A stretch of DNA of 64,000 nt, taken from Curtobacterium flaccumfaciens (lineage in GTDB: Bacteria; Actinomycetota; Actinomycetes; Actinomycetales; Microbacteriaceae). Where the stretch lies: the NCBI RefSeq assembly GCF_004361695.1, contig NZ_SNVW01000006.1, positions 1-64,000 of the forward strand. The letters are read 5' to 3'. Both the position numbers and the translations under genes were made by a program. The notes beneath the pieces are model-generated. The model did not search any database. It saw only the letters and a program-made list of their open reading frames with translations, and was not told where the DNA came from. How positions within the stretch are numbered: position 1 is the first letter of the stretch; each line of letters begins with the position of its first letter. Positions 48,948 to 59,470 of this stretch are shown piece by piece.

Positions 48948-49838
48948 ATGAGCCAGCTCGACAAGCAGGATCCGCGCGACCAGTTCCCCCGCCCGCCGTT
49001 CCCCGCGCAGACGCAGCAGGGCTCCGGGCTGGCCAGCGCGATGGACCCGGCCCCCGACCACGGCGAGACGAGCTACCTCGGCACGGGCCGGATGCCCGGC
49101 TACCGGGTGCTCGTCACCGGCGCGGACTCCGGCATCGGTCGTGCTGCGGCGATCGCGATGGCGAAGGAGGGCGCGGACGTCGCCCTGAACGCCCTGCCCG
49201 AGGAACGCGAGGACCTCGAAGCCGTCCGCGACGTCGTCGGCGACCTCGGCCGCAAGGCGGTGCTGCTGCCGGGCGACCTCACCGACGAGGCGTTCTGCGA
49301 CGTGCTGGTGCGCGACGCCGTCAGCGAGCTCGGCGGGCTCGACGCGCTCGTCCTGGTGGCGGGGCACCAGCAGGTGCACGAGGACATCACCCGACAGAGC
49401 ACCGAGGACTTCGACCGGACGATGAAGGTCAACCTCTACTCGCTGTTCTGGCTGGTCCGGGCCGCCGTGCCGCACATGGCGCCGGGCAGCGCGATCGTGA
49501 CCACCAGCTCGGTCTCGGCGTACCAGCCGCAGGACCGGATGATCGACTACGCGGCGACGAAGGCCGCGATCATCACGTACACGAACGGGCTGGCCCGACA
49601 GCTCGCGTCGCGGGGCATCCGCGCGAACACGGTCGTGCCGGGCCCGGTGTGGACGCCCCTGCAGCCGATCAGCTACCCCGGTGACGAGATCGCCGCGTAC
49701 GGGCAGGACACCCCGTTCGGCCGGCCCGCGCAGCCGGTGGAACTCGGCGGCGCGTACGTCTACCTGGCCGGGCCGGAGTCCTCGTACACGTCCGGCTCGA
49801 CCCTCACCGTGGCGGGAGCGACCGGGGTGGCGTTGTGA
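48948..49838 (+). CDS. SDR oxidoreductase in the NHEJ locus
   Basis: The 296-aa SDR belongs to the same N-terminally extended subgroup as 11213-12124: YLGTGRMPGYRVLVTGADSGIG (NAD motif) and the catalytic YAATKAA (IDYAATKAAIITYTNG). It differs at its C-terminus (SGSTLTVAGATG instead of HVDGGMP) and has LVAGHQQ in place of NNAGKQQ, both of which normally line the cofactor and substrate site. It precedes ligD with a GTGA overlap. NHEJ loci do not need an SDR, so this may be a stress enzyme co-regulated with repair. Confidence 0.88.
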   Translation: MSQLDKQDPRDQFPRPPFPAQTQQGSGLASAMDPAPDHGETSYLGTGRMPGYRVLVTGADSGIGRAAAIAMAKEGADVALNALPEEREDLEAVRDVVGDLGRKAVLLPGDLTDEAFCDVLVRDAVSELGGLDALVLVAGHQQVHEDITRQSTEDFDRTMKVNLYSLFWLVRAAVPHMAPGSAIVTTSSVSAYQPQDRMIDYAATKAAIITYTNGLARQLASRGIRANTVVPGPVWTPLQPISYPGDEIAAYGQDTPFGRPAQPVELGGAYVYLAGPESSYTSGSTLTVAGATGVAL

Positions 49839-52357
49839 GTCCCGCATCGCGCAAGACCGTCGTGCTGGTCGGCGACCGGCGACTCGCGCTCACCAACACC
49901 GACAAGGTGCTCTACCCGGAGACCGGCACGACCAAGGGCCGCGTGATCGAATACTACGAGCGGGTGGCGCCGTGGATGATCCCGCACGTGAAGGACCGGC
50001 CGGTGACCCGGAAGCGCTGGGCGAACGGCGTCGAGGGCAAGGTCTTCTTCGAGAAGAACCTGCCCGACTCGGCGCCCGACTGGGTCCGGCACCACACCAT
50101 CCACCACTCCGAGCACGACAACGAGTACCCGATCGTCGACGACCTGCCGACGCTGGTCTGGATGGCGCAGCAGGCCGCCCTCGAACTGCACGTGCCGCAG
50201 TGGCGCTTCGGTCCCCGGGGTGCGCAGCAGAACCCGGACCGGCTCGTGCTCGACCTCGACCCCGGCGACGGCGTCGGCCTGCCGGAGTGCGTCGAGGTGG
50301 CGGTCGCCGCGCGTGAGGTCCTGCACGGCATGGGCCTCGACCCGTACCCGGTGACCTCCGGCTCGAAGGGCATCCACCTCTACGCCGCCCTCGACGGGAA
50401 GGCCACCACCACGCAGGTGTCCGAGGTCGCGCACGAACTCGCGAAGTCGCTCGAACAGGACCTGCCGGACCTCGTGCTGTCGTCGATGAGCCGGGCTGAG
50501 CGGACGGGCAAGGTCTTCGTCGACTGGTCGCAGAACAACGGGAACAAGACGACGATCGCCCCGTACTCCCTGCGCGGCCGCGAACGGCCGACGGTCGCCG
50601 CACCCCGCACCTGGAAGGAGCTCGAGGAACGCGGGCTCGCCCAGCTCACGTTGGACGAGGTGCTCGAACGCCTGGAGGCCCGTGGCGACTTCCTGCACCC
50701 GGTCGCCTCCGCCTCGTTGGCCGTCGGACGACCGGACCACGGTCACTGGGACAGCGACCGGACCCAGCGCGCGAACGACGCGGAGCAGCCCGGGCGGGAC
50801 CGCCTCGCGGCCTACCGTGCGAAGCGCGACGCCTCGAAGACACCGGAGCCGGTCCCCGAGGACGCTCCGACGGTCCGGAGGGACGGCACCCCGACGTTCG
50901 TCATCCAGGAGCACCACGCGACCCGGGACCACTACGACTTCCGGCTGGAGCACGAGGGCGTGCTCGTCAGCTGGGCGCTGCCGAAGGGCGAGCCGACCGA
51001 CCCGGGGAAGAACCACCTGGCGGTGCAGACCGAGGACCACCCGCTCGAGTACGGCGCGTTCGAGGGCACGATCCCGAAGGACGAGTACGGCGGCGGCACG
51101 GTCACGATCTGGGACGACGGCACGTACGAGCTCGAGAAGTGGCGCGAGGGCGAAGAGGTCATCGTCACGCTGCACGGTCGGACCGGTGGCGCTCGCCGTC
51201 TGGCGCTCCTGCACACCAGGGGGCGCGGACGCGGGCGCGAGGGCGACGCGAAGAACTGGCTCATCCACCGCACCAAGGACCAGCCGGACCGCCTGGCAGA
51301 AGGGGGCGACGGGGCGGCGGCGAGCCGTGCCTCCCGGCCGTCGACCGCACCACGGGACGGACAGGAGCGCATCGAGGGGGCCGCGGCCGCGGACACCGCG
51401 CCCTCGGAGCGCCGGACGATGCAGGCCTCCCTGGCGAAGGGCGAACCCGTCCTCGACCCGGCCGACTGGGCGTTCGAGATGAAGTGGGACGGCATCCGTG
51501 CCCTCTGCACCGTGCGGGACGGCTCGGTGACCCTGCGCAGCCGCAACGACAACGACCTCACCGACCAGTACCCGGAGCTCCAGGAGCTCGGCGAACGAGC
51601 GGGCGTCGACGGGGTGTTCGACGGCGAGATCGTGGCGCTCGACGACCGCGGTCGACCGTCGTTCCAGCTGCTGCAGAACCGGATGGGGCTCACGAAGCAC
51701 CGCGAGGTCGAAGCGGCCCGCGCGCAGACCCCGGTCCGCCTGCTGCTCTTCGACGTGCTCGAGGCAGACGGACACGAGCTGACCCGGCTCGGGTACGACG
51801 CCCGGCGCCAGGCGCTGGAGACGGTCGTCGAACCCGGCGGCGCGATCGACGTCCCCGCCGCGTACCAGGGCGACCTGGCGCGGGCGATGGCGGACTCGAA
51901 GGAGCAGGGGCTCGAGGGCGTGGTCGCGAAGAAGCGGTCGTCGAAGTACGCCGAAGGGCGTCGGTCCGAGGCGTGGTTGAAGCTCAAGCACCACGCCACG
52001 CAAGAGGTCGTGGTGGGTGGCTGGAAGCCCGGCAGCGGTCGACGTGCCGGCGGTGTCGGCTCCCTGCTGCTCGGTGTGCCCGGCCCGGACGGACTCGAGT
52101 ACGTCGGCAAGGTCGGCACCGGGTTCCGCGACCGCGACCTCGACGAGATCGGTGCCACGCTCGGTGCGCTGGAGCGGAAGACCTCGCCGTTCGTCGACGT
52201 CCCGCGGCCCGATGCCCGTGACGCGCACTGGGTGACGCCGAAGCGGGTCGGCGAGGTCGAGTTCGCCGAGTGGACCTCCGACGGCCGGTTGCGGCAGCCG
52301 TCGTGGCGAGGGTGGAGGGTGGACAAGGACCCGTCGGACGTCGTTCGCGAAGGCTGA
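49835..52357 (+). CDS. ligD: Multifunctional NHEJ DNA ligase D (Pol-PE-Lig)
   Basis: The 840-aa LigD has three domains in the mycobacterial order. The polymerase/primase (about 10-300) has metal Asp residues in LVLDLDPGDG near 143 and a VTSGSKGIHLYA loop. The 3'-phosphoesterase (about 345-500) has HHATRDHYDFRLEHEGV. The ATP-dependent ligase (about 530-835) has Lys about 549 in EMKWDGIRAL, DGEIVALD, EGVVAKK and LKLKHH. It fills, trims and seals broken ends held by Ku. The GTG start at 49835 overlaps the SDR stop. The linker between PE and ligase (about 490-520) contains a palindrome half-copy (51325-51340). Confidence 0.97.
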   Translation: MSPASRKTVVLVGDRRLALTNTDKVLYPETGTTKGRVIEYYERVAPWMIPHVKDRPVTRKRWANGVEGKVFFEKNLPDSAPDWVRHHTIHHSEHDNEYPIVDDLPTLVWMAQQAALELHVPQWRFGPRGAQQNPDRLVLDLDPGDGVGLPECVEVAVAAREVLHGMGLDPYPVTSGSKGIHLYAALDGKATTTQVSEVAHELAKSLEQDLPDLVLSSMSRAERTGKVFVDWSQNNGNKTTIAPYSLRGRERPTVAAPRTWKELEERGLAQLTLDEVLERLEARGDFLHPVASASLAVGRPDHGHWDSDRTQRANDAEQPGRDRLAAYRAKRDASKTPEPVPEDAPTVRRDGTPTFVIQEHHATRDHYDFRLEHEGVLVSWALPKGEPTDPGKNHLAVQTEDHPLEYGAFEGTIPKDEYGGGTVTIWDDGTYELEKWREGEEVIVTLHGRTGGARRLALLHTRGRGRGREGDAKNWLIHRTKDQPDRLAEGGDGAAASRASRPSTAPRDGQERIEGAAAADTAPSERRTMQASLAKGEPVLDPADWAFEMKWDGIRALCTVRDGSVTLRSRNDNDLTDQYPELQELGERAGVDGVFDGEIVALDDRGRPSFQLLQNRMGLTKHREVEAARAQTPVRLLLFDVLEADGHELTRLGYDARRQALETVVEPGGAIDVPAAYQGDLARAMADSKEQGLEGVVAKKRSSKYAEGRRSEAWLKLKHHATQEVVVGGWKPGSGRRAGGVGSLLLGVPGPDGLEYVGKVGTGFRDRDLDEIGATLGALERKTSPFVDVPRPDARDAHWVTPKRVGEVEFAEWTSDGRLRQPSWRGWRVDKDPSDVVREG

Positions 52358-52492: not shown

Positions 52493-52648
52493 ATGAGCGC
52501 GAGCAAGTACCTGCCCCCGTTCACCACGGAGGAGCGCGGCACGATCGCTGCGGACCCGTCGGTGCAGATGCCGGTCGACCCGGGCGCGGTGCTGTCCGAG
52601 CCCGAGGTCACCTACGCGGACTTCCTCGGCGACGAGGTCGACGAGTAG
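52493..52648 (+). CDS. Small acidic protein, 51 aa
   Basis: The 51-aa acidic product begins MSASKYLPPFTTEER and ends in DFLGDEVDE, with no membrane segment. Support comes from AAAGGG 8 nt before ATG 52493, a TACGTT-type -10 about 25 nt upstream, and a hairpin (52659-52687) after the stop. An in-frame GTG at 52487 is an alternative. I recognise no family. Codon use is typical of the genome. Confidence 0.6.
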   Translation: MSASKYLPPFTTEERGTIAADPSVQMPVDPGAVLSEPEVTYADFLGDEVDE

Positions 52649-52658
52649 GAGAAGGCGA

Positions 52659-52687
52659 CCCGTGCGCCGGATCAGGGAACGCACGGG
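52659..52687 (+). terminator. Hairpin after 51-aa gene
   Basis: CCCGTGCG (52659-52666) pairs with CGCACGGG (52680-52687) 10 bp after the stop codon. A terminator is likely, but no T tract is present. Confidence 0.5.
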
Positions 52688-52784
52688 CCGCCGTCAGAGC
52701 GCCGCGACCGGCCGTTCAGGGATGACCGGCCGCGACGCGCTCTGCGCCAGCAGCGAGCGATGCTCCTGGCAGGCACGTACAGAA

Positions 52785-52813
52785 GACGTGACGAACGACC
52801 GGTTCGTCACGTC
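52785..52813. promoter_or_regulatory. Perfect 12-bp-arm inverted repeat upstream of sigma/Asp23 operon
   Basis: GACGTGACGAAC-GACCG-GTTCGTCACGTC lies 30 nt before the GAGGAG ribosome site of the sigma gene. It is not followed by a T run and may be an operator, an autoregulatory sigma-dependent element or an attenuator hairpin. The pairing is perfect, which is unlikely by chance. Confidence 0.65.
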
Positions 52814-52856
52814 CGGACCCGGAATTCCCCCGCCGGGCTGACCTGAGGAGCAGACC

Positions 52857-53414
52857 CTGAGCGACGCTGACGCCCTGGCGTCCCTGTCGGACGCCTCCCT
52901 CGTCGAACGCAGCGCCGACGGTGACACCGTCGCGTTCGGTGTGCTCATCCGCCGGTACGGCCCGCACATGCGGGCCTACGCGGCCCGCATCCTCGGTCAC
53001 GGGGACGGCGAGGCGGACGACGCCGTGCAGGAGGCCGCGCTGCAGGCCTGGCAGCGCATCGACCGGGTCGACGATCCGGACCGGGTGCGCAACTGGCTGT
53101 TCCGCATCGCCGCCAACAAGGCGCTCGACCGTCTCCGACGTCGTCACCCCCACCTCGACCTGGAGGCAGTGGCCGAGTCCTCAGACGACCGTCCGGTCGA
53201 CGAGGTGGTCGCGACACGGCTCCAGGTCCAGGAACTCGCGCGTATCGTGCAGGCTCTCCCCGATGCACCGCGTGCGGTGTGGGTGATGCGGGAGATCGGC
53301 GGGGCGTCGTACGCCGAGATCGCCGAGGCGACGGGGATGTCGCAGGCGACGGTGCGGGGGGTCCTGGCACGTGCGCGTCGACGAGTACTCGAGCAGATGG
53401 AGGGGTGGCGATGA
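52857..53414 (+). CDS. ECF sigma factor with probable CTG start
   Basis: The sigma factor contains region 2 (ADGDTVAFGVLIRRYGPHMRAYA, AVQEAALQAWQRIDRVDDPDRVRNWLFRIAANKALDRLR) and region 4 (LPDAPRAVWVMREIGGASYAEIAEATGMSQATVRGVLARARRRV). The first ordinary start, GTG 52941, would remove the beginning of region 2. The frame opens at 52842 with no ATG, GTG or TTG before 52941, but CTG 52857 sits 6 nt after a perfect GAGGAG site and gives a complete 185-aa protein starting LSDADALASLSDASLVERS, as in related sigma factors. Its stop overlaps the following gene (ATGA). Confidence 0.85.
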   Translation: MSDADALASLSDASLVERSADGDTVAFGVLIRRYGPHMRAYAARILGHGDGEADDAVQEAALQAWQRIDRVDDPDRVRNWLFRIAANKALDRLRRRHPHLDLEAVAESSDDRPVDEVVATRLQVQELARIVQALPDAPRAVWVMREIGGASYAEIAEATGMSQATVRGVLARARRRVLEQMEGWR

Positions 53415-53989
53415 CCGACGACGAACGCTTCGGTGCCTTCACCCTCGAGGAGCTCTCCGACTACCTCGACGCCGGGCGGCACCCGGTCCGACCGGACATC
53501 GAGGGCGACCCGGAGGCACGCGCTGCACTCGGCCGACTCGAGAGCCTGCGGACGGCCTCACTCGACCTGCTCGACGCCGACGTGTCCGGCGCGGACGACT
53601 CCTGGATCGCCGGTGTCCTCACCTCGATCCGGACGACGGCGCACGCGGGACGGGACATTCCGGTGCCCGACGACGACCCGTCCTCGACGCTCGTCGTGAC
53701 CGAAGGGGCGCTCCGTGGACTCGTGCGGGCACTCGGCGACGACGTCCCCGGGCTGGTCGTCCGCCGCACGCGCATCACGGGCGACGTCACGGTGCCGGGT
53801 GGCGCGGTGGACGTCGAGGTCACGGTCGCGGTGACCGCCGACGGGCCCGTCCACGCCCGGACGGAAGCGCTGCACGTGGCGGTCGCGGTCGCCCTCGGCG
53901 CGCACGCGCCGTTCGCCGTGCAGTCGGTCGTGGTGCGGGTGGTCGACCTCATCGACCCCACCGAACCCAGCCACGGAGGAGACGCATGA
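53411..53989 (+). CDS. Asp23/Gls24-like domain protein with anti-sigma-like N-terminus
   Basis: The 192-aa protein has an acidic helical N-terminal part (about 1-60; ERFGAFTLEELSDYLDAGRHPV, the segment where many ECF-associated proteins carry an anti-sigma helix) and a C-terminal Asp23/Gls24-like domain (about 95-185; GALRGLVRALGDDVPGL, VDVEVTVAVTADGPVHARTEALH). No membrane helix is evident. It is coupled at both ends by ATGA overlaps to the sigma gene and to another Asp23-like gene. A role as the sigma factor's partner in envelope or alkaline stress is likely but not proven by sequence. Confidence 0.7.
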   Translation: MTDDERFGAFTLEELSDYLDAGRHPVRPDIEGDPEARAALGRLESLRTASLDLLDADVSGADDSWIAGVLTSIRTTAHAGRDIPVPDDDPSSTLVVTEGALRGLVRALGDDVPGLVVRRTRITGDVTVPGGAVDVEVTVAVTADGPVHARTEALHVAVAVALGAHAPFAVQSVVVRVVDLIDPTEPSHGGDA

Positions 53990-54315
53990 TCGCCGACACC
54001 CGGACCCTGTCCCGCCGGCTGACCGAGGTCGCGCTCGCCGTGCCGGGCGTCCGGTCCGTGCTGCCGCCGGGTCCGAAGCTCGCCACGCTCGTGCGGGACG
54101 TCCGGACCGTGCTCGACCTGCCGCGGGACGGCGGCGCGGTGCTCGTGCAGGACCAGCCGGGCGGTGCACGCATCCGCGTGGTCGTCACCACCGGACGCGC
54201 CGTCCCCACGGTGGCGCTGCTGCGGGACGTGCGCGACGCAGTCGTGCGGGCCGCGGTGGACGCCCTGGGTCAGCGACCGGCGGACGTCACCGTGCGGGTC
54301 GTCGAGATCGACTGA
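53986..54315 (+). CDS. Asp23/Gls24-like small protein
   Basis: The 109-aa protein is almost entirely a single Asp23/Gls24-like domain (RRLTEVALAVPGVRSVLPPG, then RIRVVVTTGRAVPTVALLRDVRDAVVRAAVDAL). It resembles the C-terminal half of the preceding gene's product and may be its partner or paralogue. The pattern of strands and the paired VPG segments agree with the family, but overall similarity is low. Its start overlaps the preceding stop, making a three-gene translationally coupled operon. Confidence 0.68.
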   Translation: MIADTRTLSRRLTEVALAVPGVRSVLPPGPKLATLVRDVRTVLDLPRDGGAVLVQDQPGGARIRVVVTTGRAVPTVALLRDVRDAVVRAAVDALGQRPADVTVRVVEID

Positions 54316-56998: not shown

Positions 56999-59470
56999 CT
57001 ACCGACCGGGCGCCGCCCCCTCCGTCTCACCCAAGCCGGGGTCGCCACCGGTCCCACCGGAGGCCGGCTCGTCCTGCGGCCACCCCGCGAACTCCCACCC
57101 GCCCACCGACGGGTGGTCCTCGCCCCTGCTGTAGGCGTACTCGCGGGCGGCGTCACGGGCCTCGGACAGCTTGCCGAGCAGCTCCTCGTGGGCATCGGCG
57201 TCGACCCGGGTGAGGGCGTCGTGGGCGAGCGCGAACCGGTCCATCTCGTTGCGCATGAGCATGTCGAACGGCGACGTCGTCGTGCCCCGCTCGAGGAACC
57301 CGTGGACGTGCAGGTCGTCGTGCCCGTTCCGGCGGTAGGTGAGCTGGTGCACGAGCGACGGGTAGCCGTGGAAGGCGAACACCGCCGGGGTGCCGGGCAG
57401 GAACAGCTCGTCGTAGCGCTCGTCCCGCATCGGGTGCTCGTGCTTCCGCGGGTCACCGAGTGCGAGCAGGTCGACGACGTTCACGACGCGCACGCCCACA
57501 TCCGGCGCGTGCTTCCGGATGATGTCGGCGGCCGCGACGGTCTCGACGGTCGGCACGTCGCCGGCGCAGACGAGCACGACGTCCGCACGACCGATGGCGT
57601 CCTCGGTGCCCGCCCAGCCCCAGACGCCTGCGCCGGCGTCGACGTGCGCGACGGCGTCCTCGAGCGACAGGAACACCGGCTCGGGGTGCTTGCCCGCGAC
57701 GATCACCTCGATGCGGTCCGTCGTCTCCATGGCATGCGCGGCCACGGCGAGCAGCGTGTTGGCGTCCGCCGGCAGCTTGATCCGCACGAGGTCCTGCTGC
57801 TTCGACGCGACGACGTCGAGGAACCCCGGGTCCTGGTGCGAGAACCCGTTGTGGTCCTGCCGCCAGACGTGCGACGACAGCAGGATCGACAGGTTCGACA
57901 CCGGTGCCCGCCAGTCGATGTCGGTCGAGGACTCGAGCCACTTGGCGTACTGGCCGACCATCGAGTCGATGATGTGGGCGAAGGCCTCGTAGGTGTTGAG
58001 GAGTCCGTGCCGTCCACTCAGCACGTAGCCCTCGAGCATGCCCTCGAGCAGGTGCTCGGAGAGGACCTCGGTCACCCGGCCCTGCGCACCGAGGTGCTCG
58101 TCACCGACGCCGCGTTGCGCGCGCCAGACCCGGGTCGTGACGTCGAACACCGCATCGAGCTTGTTCGAGATCGTCTCGTCGGGGCCGAACAGGCGGAACG
58201 TCGACGGGTTCCGCTGGATGAGCGCGGCGAGCCACGGGCCCAGGGTGCCGGTGGCGCTCGCGGTCCCGCCGACCTCCGCGGCGAACTCGGCGAGTGCGGG
58301 GCGGTCGAGCGCGGTGCGGATCCGGCCGCCGTTCGCGTGCGGCGTCGCGCTCATCCGGTGGTCGCCGCTCGGTCGGATGGTGGTGAGGATGCCGATCGGC
58401 TGGCCGTCCTCGTCGAAGAGCTCCTCCGGGCGGTAGGAGCGCATCCACTCCTCGAGCTGCCGGCGGTGTGCATCGTTCTCGCGCACCCCGGGCAGCGGGA
58501 CCTGGTGGGCACGGAAGGTGCCCTCGACCTGCTGCCCGTCGACCTCCTTCGGTCCGGTCCACCCCTTCGGGGTCCGGAGCACGATCATCGGCCACCGCGG
58601 GCGCAGGTCGGATGCACCGGCCGGCTGTCCCGCGGCCGCACGCTGGGCCTGCGCACGGGCAGACGCCTGGATGTCGTCGATCGTCGCCATCGCGCGGCGG
58701 AGCGCGCCGTCGAACAGCGCGTGCACGGCGAAGGGGTCGTCGCCGACCCGGGCGGAGTCGACCACGACGGGCTCGTACCCCAGCCCGCGGAAGTACGAGG
58801 TGAGGTCCTCGTCGGGGATGCGGGCGAGGACCGTCGGGTTCGCGATCTTCCACCCGTTGAGGTTGAGGATCGGCAGCACCGCCCCGTCGTGCACCGGGTC
58901 GAGGAAGGTGTGCGCCTGCCACGAGGCAGCGAGCGGCCCCGTCTCGGCCTCGCCGTCGCCGACGACGCACGCCACGACGAGGTCGGGGTTGTCGAGCGCC
59001 GCCCCGTACGCGTGCGCGAGGGAGTATCCGAGCTCGCCGCCCTCGTTGATCGAGCCCGGGGTCTCCGGGGCCGCGTGCGACGGGATCCCACCGGGGAAGG
59101 AGAACTGCCGGAAGAACTGCTGCAGCCCGGCCGGGTCCGGCGTGATCGACGGGTAGAGCTCGCCCCACGTGCCCTCGAGCCACGCGTTCGCGTTCATCGC
59201 GGGCCCGCCGTGCCCCGGGCCGCAGATGTACAGCAGGTCGCGGTCGGTCTCGGTGATGAGCGCGTTGAGGTGCGCGTACACGAGGCTCAGCGCCGGCGAG
59301 GTGCCCCAGTGGCCGAGCAACCGGGGCTTGATGTCGTCGGGGTCGATCGGGCGCGTGAGGAGGGGGTTGTCGAGCAGGTAGATCTGCCCGACGGTGAGGT
59401 AGTTCGCGGCGCGCCACCAGGCGTCGATCGCGCGGATCCGGTCGGTGCTCGTGGTGCGTGCGGTGGACAT
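56999..59470 (-). CDS. xfp: Phosphoketolase (xylulose-5-P/fructose-6-P)
   Basis: The 823-aa thiamine-diphosphate enzyme is full length for phosphoketolase. It contains GHWGTSPALSLVYAHLN, the family signature INEGGELGYSLAHAYG and the ThDP motif GDGEAETGPLAASW (about 167-180), plus the QDHNGFSHQDPGFLD segment. It splits xylulose 5-phosphate with phosphate into acetyl phosphate and glyceraldehyde 3-phosphate, and often fructose 6-phosphate too, feeding pentose sugars into acetate metabolism. TAGCGT lies 6 nt before ATG 59470 (leaderless). No acetate kinase is adjacent. Confidence 0.96.
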   Translation of the reverse strand: MSTARTTSTDRIRAIDAWWRAANYLTVGQIYLLDNPLLTRPIDPDDIKPRLLGHWGTSPALSLVYAHLNALITETDRDLLYICGPGHGGPAMNANAWLEGTWGELYPSITPDPAGLQQFFRQFSFPGGIPSHAAPETPGSINEGGELGYSLAHAYGAALDNPDLVVACVVGDGEAETGPLAASWQAHTFLDPVHDGAVLPILNLNGWKIANPTVLARIPDEDLTSYFRGLGYEPVVVDSARVGDDPFAVHALFDGALRRAMATIDDIQASARAQAQRAAAGQPAGASDLRPRWPMIVLRTPKGWTGPKEVDGQQVEGTFRAHQVPLPGVRENDAHRRQLEEWMRSYRPEELFDEDGQPIGILTTIRPSGDHRMSATPHANGGRIRTALDRPALAEFAAEVGGTASATGTLGPWLAALIQRNPSTFRLFGPDETISNKLDAVFDVTTRVWRAQRGVGDEHLGAQGRVTEVLSEHLLEGMLEGYVLSGRHGLLNTYEAFAHIIDSMVGQYAKWLESSTDIDWRAPVSNLSILLSSHVWRQDHNGFSHQDPGFLDVVASKQQDLVRIKLPADANTLLAVAAHAMETTDRIEVIVAGKHPEPVFLSLEDAVAHVDAGAGVWGWAGTEDAIGRADVVLVCAGDVPTVETVAAADIIRKHAPDVGVRVVNVVDLLALGDPRKHEHPMRDERYDELFLPGTPAVFAFHGYPSLVHQLTYRRNGHDDLHVHGFLERGTTTSPFDMLMRNEMDRFALAHDALTRVDADAHEELLGKLSEARDAAREYAYSRGEDHPSVGGWEFAGWPQDEPASGGTGGDPGLGETEGAAPGR

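Follow-up and report, generated by a model that had tools for sequence, protein, structure and literature searches.

The described systems closest to the locus analyzed here are the ECF286 and ECF292 sigma factors, for which soluble partners of the Asp23 family have been predicted to act as anti-sigma factors (PMC8999054, citing Casas-Pastor et al. 2021). In the passage of that review dealing with these groups, activation of Asp23-linked ECF sigma factors is described as being without experimental data, and no mention is made of a zinc-derived N-terminus, a second Asp23-like gene, a promoter motif or an RNA. Within the part of the open literature searched, no other work was found to name ECF286 or ECF292 sigma factors. 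The locus described here lies within the first 64,000 nucleotides (hereafter the window) of a Curtobacterium flaccumfaciens contig, where an ECF sigma gene likewise adjoins a soluble Asp23-family gene with a predicted anti-sigma role, a likeness of gene arrangement. The initial annotation had presented an Asp23-type anti-sigma factor as a distinct regulatory design; because the passage already gives this prediction for ECF286 and ECF292, the design itself is not new, and the new part lies outside the genes, in a divergent promoter and a conserved structured RNA.

Zinc anti-sigma (ZAS) factors such as RsrA, ChrR and RslA are defined by an HxxxCxxC zinc motif. The second gene of the operon (gene 2) resembles them in its N-terminal helical domain and in having relatives that carry HxxxCxxC at the aligned place, whereas gene 2 of the window has no such ligands and ends in an Asp23-like domain. 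MicA and RybB are sigma-E-dependent regulatory RNAs, and the RNA described below is similarly preceded by a predicted ECF-type promoter. With the actinobacterial 6C RNA, whose C-rich loops pair with ribosome-binding sites according to a title cited in PMC8628891, it has in common C-rich hairpin loops that could form such pairs. Unlike 6C RNA, MicA and RybB, it has no Rfam match, its loops read CCCUGA rather than runs of C, and it is confined to one genus so far.

Table 1 Features of the operon and its upstream region (window coordinates).
Feature	Position	Strand	Description
Small conserved ORF	52493..52648	+	51 aa; no Pfam match; end meets 3' end of RNA gene
Three-hairpin RNA gene	52654..52784	-	model R1, 134.5 bits; true 5' and 3' ends inferred
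RNA hairpins	SL1 ~52744-52774, SL2 ~52697-52742, SL3 ~52654-52692	-	
Perfect inverted repeat	52785..52813		two 12-nt arms, 5-nt centre; two overlapping motif copies
ECF-type promoter GTGACGAA-N14-CGTC, predicted	52785..52810	-	conserved direction, away from sigma, into RNA
Same motif towards sigma gene	52788..52813	+	exact in window
ECF sigma gene	52857..53414	+	185 aa; Pfam Sigma70_r2 and Sigma70_r4_2
Gene 2	53411..53989	+	192 aa; N-terminal helical domain and C-terminal Asp23-like domain
Gene 3	53986..54315	+	109 aa; stand-alone Asp23-like domain; model pLDDT 82.6

The sigma operon and its Asp23-like genes

Three ORFs lie in tandem on the plus strand (52857-54315), each overlapping the next by ATGA (at positions 53411 and 53986; Table 1), which bears out the annotated coupling of an ECF sigma gene to a second gene and of the second to a third. 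The first product belongs to the ECF sigma factors, as regions 2 and 4 both exceeded their Pfam cut-offs (Sigma70_r2, E 4.5e-17, 62.1 bits against a cut-off of 24; Sigma70_r4_2, E 2.3e-11, 43.6 bits against 25.7). No in-frame ATG, GTG or TTG was found upstream of region 2, and the first usual start codon (GTG 52941) already falls within this region, which makes CTG 52857-52859 a plausible start. This codon, which has GAGGAG (52845-52850) six bases before it and an in-frame TGA stop at 52839-52841 upstream, was kept in all 14 window-type loci whose sigma gene is complete, only 4 of which offer an alternative GTG 57 bases upstream, and it is the probable start of the sigma gene. The G018 genome (L011/L173) has a sigma gene without region 2, apparently owing to an in-frame deletion; its promoter, RNA, gene 2 and gene 3 are retained.

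A survey of gene neighbourhoods, set beforehand as the test that could overturn the proposed association, instead revealed strong co-occurrence of these genes across several genera, as well as a second copy of the operon (the paralogue) on contig C2 of the same genome. Relatives of gene 2 were detected in 36 of 59 related genomes searched (35/36 of the same genus, 1/23 of the others); searching the order with the paralogue brought up relatives in 32 of 248 genomes. None were found in the viral contigs searched. Sixty loci were taken, of which 53 parsed as sigma plus gene 2 (6 were without a sigma match and 1 was truncated at the end of its contig), and removal of one unrelated locus (L066) left the 52 loci that underlie all counts with this denominator; gene 3 was chosen in each by a nearest-ORF rule. 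The overlap between sigma gene and gene 2 was exactly 4 bp in 50/52 loci from several genera, which is more than chance, and a 4-bp overlap between genes 2 and 3 was present in 39/52. In the tree of gene 2 proteins, the window-type members formed a single clade (15 rows, support 100/100).

Searches with Asp23 models left the window proteins themselves unmatched: neither gene 2 nor gene 3 produced a Pfam or NCBIfam match up to E 10, and neither reached the curated cut-off of PF03780. Their families, however, did match PF03780, with 37/52 gene 2 members (best E 8.4e-9) and 12/52 gene 3 members (best E 2e-4) at E 0.1 or better, and the paralogue from the same genome reached the cut-off (28.1-29.2 bits against 28). 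Alignment of family profiles to classic Asp23 by hhalign gave probabilities of 96 for gene 2 (E 3.9e-9) and 95 for gene 3 (E 3.9e-8), although E-values from such single comparisons are rough. As homology was established for the families and the cut-off was missed by the window proteins, both genes are called Asp23-like rather than Asp23. They resemble the Asp23/Gls24 envelope stress proteins (PF03780) in that classic profiles align with gene 3 over its full length and with gene 2 over its C-terminal domain, and differ in being too divergent for the Pfam model and tied to a sigma factor. An AlphaFold2 model of gene 2 (pLDDT 84.4) contained helices at residues 12-20, 28-31, 34-56 and 64-76 followed by an alpha/beta domain, with the helical domain spanning approximately residues 10-76 and the Asp23-like domain 95-182. 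Together with the family-level matches, this upholds the architectures annotated initially, namely a helical N-terminus plus an Asp23-like domain for gene 2 and the same domain alone for gene 3.

Structural comparison using VIA-align matched gene 2 residues 95-181 (Z 9.8, rmsd 2.4, 78 aligned) and gene 3 (Z 12.1, rmsd 1.9, 77 aligned) to the C-terminal domain of MamM, followed by PrgK and EscJ (Z 8.4 and 8.2 for gene 2; 9.7 and 9.5 for gene 3). Kinship with cation transporters was rejected, and the MamM match was read as a shared common fold. A Foldseek search of the gene 2 model against the PDB returned no match at E 0.001 or better, and no anti-sigma structures appeared in the VIA-align or Foldseek lists, where the N-terminal part of gene 2 was barely covered.

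The N-terminus of gene 2 aligned with that of relatives bearing HxxxCxxC, a motif present in 10/52 gene 2 N-termini against 0.02 expected on shuffling; CxxC was present in 13/52, and the bearers of either motif are relatives from other genera. In the window, this region contains neither HxxxCxxC nor CxxC and all zinc ligands are missing, which places it outside the ZAS factors as defined by their motif; from the alignment, it looks like a zinc anti-sigma domain whose ligands have been lost. PDB sequence searches gave no significant match. For the N-terminus, the single match for query A1 was the anti-sigma factor DdvA (E 1.1), and the best for query A3 was 3hug_B (presumably RslA; E 0.046), closely followed by unrelated zinc fingers. 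The best match for query A2 was a designed protein (E 0.026). Matches of gene 2 N-termini to zf-HC2 were weak (5/13, best E 0.015), so that the PDB and zf-HC2 results are only suggestive of zinc anti-sigma descent.

Overall, gene 2 is a candidate and probable anti-sigma factor, a role made likely by the finding that other genomes, too, couple two Asp23-like genes to an ECF sigma gene. The suggestion that an Asp23-type protein serves as partner or anti-sigma factor is thus retained as to role but revised as to the part involved, since the sigma-binding region is most likely the N-terminal helical domain, with its HxxxCxxC relatives, and not the Asp23 domain itself. Genes 2 and 3 might instead be co-expressed envelope effectors that leave the sigma factor under transcriptional control only, as could be expected of Asp23-family proteins, which are envelope proteins, and of a window N-terminal domain without any zinc ligand. 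This we consider unlikely in view of the translational coupling of gene 2 to the sigma gene in nearly all loci, its HxxxCxxC relatives, and the published ECF286/ECF292 prediction.

A structured RNA upstream of the operon

The region upstream of the operon, folded as minus strand, reached a minimum free energy of -82.3 kcal/mol (z -5.45) and forms three hairpins, the SL2 and SL3 loops each containing CCCUGA. In an alignment of 35 RNAs built on sequence only, 96.7% of cells pair and 18/36 pairs showed changes on both sides; none of 500 shuffles reached 18 pairs and slid versions gave at most 6, so that covariation exceeded both controls, as for a structured RNA. The alignment also contained 190 G-U against 8 A-C cells, which fixes the RNA strand as minus. 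No Rfam family, 6C RNA included, matched in the window, L163 or L187; only chance-level matches were obtained at E up to 10. The covariance model recovered the RNA at E below 1e-3 in 42/60 genomes of the genus. Across the family, it gave matches in 3/150 genomes, two of which were of the same genus and one a weak match (E 0.004). The RNA is therefore described as a candidate new family, conserved and structured; within the part of the open literature covered by our search, no paper linked Curtobacterium with an RNA of such kind.

An ECF-type motif accompanied the RNA at all 36 loci examined, which come from 36 of the 42 genomes of the genus that passed the E threshold of 1e-3. The distance between motif and RNA was 0-1 nt in 31/36 (zero by construction in the 13 training rows in which the RNA model was trimmed at the motif) and 22-28 nt in 4, and in L197 the motif fell inside the matched span. 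A window-type sigma gene adjoined the RNA in 23/30 loci checked and was absent in 7/30, from which it follows that another sigma factor can serve the RNA and that the RNA belongs to a regulon rather than to this operon. The 51-aa ORF on its other side was found beside the RNA in 28/30 loci by tblastn and is a neighbour, not part of the switch proposed below. LigD (primase-polymerase, phosphoesterase and ligase domains; window 49835-52357), which precedes the RNA locus, adjoined the RNA in 29/30 loci, the exception (L180) being cut by a contig end; a phosphoketolase (XFP) gene lies at 56999-59470 on the minus strand.

Several variants were observed. L185 (G022) has both RNA and motif, with no gene 2 relative or C7-type Asp23 gene (see below) detected, and its SL2 loop is without CCCUGA, which may reflect relaxed constraint. 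In L009 and L197, only the last hairpin is left behind the promoter and may be a minimal unit. A 108-nt region at G000:C3:203934-204041, with similar regions in many genus genomes, scored approximately 30 bits with the RNA model, and no Rfam family was found there.

If the hairpins acted as a bidirectional terminator, or attenuated expression of the small ORF, and no regulatory RNA was made, this could account for SL3 ending where that ORF ends, for its being the one hairpin left in L009 and L197, and for the folding of the plus strand as well (z -2.85). Such a reading appears improbable, however, given that three helices covary, that the G-U excess and the lower z-score both point to the minus strand, that a promoter faces in the RNA direction at 36/36 loci, and that constant CCCUGA loops would be superfluous in a terminator.

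The palindromic element and related promoter motifs

The initial annotation also described a perfect 29-bp inverted repeat preceding the operon. A perfect repeat is present, and its core (TGACGAAC-N5-GTTCGTCA) is the sole zero-mismatch site in the genome, but it is not a separate element, being perfect because the motif in the window reads both ways. In orthologues the perfect symmetry is lost and the promoter-like pair within the repeat is conserved, with the minus-strand orientation found by script in 14/14 window-type loci and, including L011 by reading, in 15/15. Rather than an element in front of the operon, it is a predicted promoter whose conserved direction leads away from it, into the RNA gene. 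The motif facing the sigma gene was exact in 1/14 window-type loci scanned, the window alone, which indicates that autoregulation of the operon is not conserved; the plus-strand motif may be an autoregulatory promoter confined to this genome.

At the paralogous operon and its orthologues, GTGACG-N16-CGTC pointed towards the sigma gene in 10/13 loci, and 5/13 carried the motif in both directions; no such motif was detected at the operon of the f6 loci (L049-L054). In the corresponding region of L007 (8877-9150; C2 operon), a 50-aa ORF without Pfam match lies between promoter and paralogous sigma gene. Genome-wide, exact TGTGACG-N16-CGTC occurred at three sites (0 in the reversed control), located in front of the paralogous operon, 57 bases upstream of the start codon (ATG) of a classic Asp23 gene (C7), and in an apparently coding position. 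With one mismatch, 258 matches were obtained against 75 in the reversed control, and these were set aside, those listed being mostly GGTGACG or CGTGACG. Exact GTGACGAW-N14-CGTC occurred at 17 sites (reversed control, 1), most of them apparently within coding ORFs, as judged roughly from the G+C content at third positions. The background of GTGACG-N16-CGTC in the fetched contexts was 29 per 609,060 strand positions, true sites included.

Across the genus, 27/34 C7-type Asp23 genes carried GTGACG-N16-CGTC upstream at a near-constant distance, as opposed to 0/6 other Asp23 genes; the remaining 7/34 were without the exact motif. The 34 C7-type genes were picked by eye from a second Asp23-like match ~2.4 kb on, and one of them (L282 in G034) had no second match among the matches listed. 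The second full-length Asp23 gene in the genome of the window (C16) had no such motif upstream. In other genera, a classic Asp23 gene lay near the sigma operon in 18/20 contexts (the match in L215 being weak), and in L044, L045 and L055 it was divergent from the operon with the motif facing Asp23. One of the 17 GTGACGAW-N14-CGTC sites, GTGACGAT-N14-CGTC at G000:C2:338200-338225, lies 42 bases upstream of the start codon (ATG) of a gene of the Holin-X family (PF07332), which on this basis is a possible further target.

That the palindrome is an operator for a dimeric repressor, its -35/-10 resemblance accidental, would suit the perfect repeat of the window and the two-way motifs of the paralogue-type loci but is very doubtful, as a palindrome needs CGTCAC and Asp23 promoters read CGTCTC in 26/27, CGTC is followed by T at 24/36 RNA promoters, and the motif stands at promoter distance before RNA and Asp23 in their direction. 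The repeat as an isolated operator was likewise set aside owing to the asymmetry of its halves elsewhere.

A proposed envelope-stress switch

Taking the directly computed domain families, conserved operon, motif sites, and RNA structure, strand and conservation together, we consider the best reading of the whole to be an envelope-stress switch that would control Asp23 and a new RNA (probability approximately 0.6). Gene 2 would inhibit the sigma factor by holding it through the N-terminal helical domain, with gene 3 as an Asp23-like helper. With the zinc ligands lost, zinc/thiol sensing would be gone and the signal would have to enter through the C-terminal Asp23-like domain of gene 2, which probably pairs with gene 3 and a membrane-side layer of classic Asp23. 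We infer that the signal is envelope stress, which would release the sigma factor. Sigma factors of this family would read GTGACGAA-N14-CGTC, presumably including the window sigma factor itself rather than its paralogue, and activity of these promoters would raise classic Asp23 and the RNA, whose CCCUGA loops may pair with purine-rich ribosome-binding sites and so lower translation of other genes.

A more specific form of this switch is offered tentatively, as possible rather than probable: the anti-sigma factor, having given up zinc sensing, would instead detect the Asp23 layer via Asp23-Asp23 pairing; the regulon would have two arms, one of protein (the classic Asp23 cluster) and one of RNA, the latter genus-wide and repressing translation via two CCCUGA loops; and a single palindromic two-way promoter would be common to RNA gene and switch in the window lineage.

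Curtobacterium is a genus known for drought tolerance. In C. aetherium, one Asp23/Gls24 gene and two sigma factor genes, unspecified in the passage concerned, were up at all desiccation stages (PMC12029717), a hint of outside support for the switch. For experimenters, the analysis, which is computational throughout, supplies a likely sigma-binding domain, a promoter motif and a short list of targets, consisting of the classic Asp23 cluster, the paralogous operon and the RNA. The gene 2 family also offers a natural gradation of anti-sigma domains, from those that bear zinc ligands to those that have none. Finally, the candidate new RNA family has a clear stress promoter and would add to the Actinobacteria an envelope-stress RNA comparable to those of enterobacteria.
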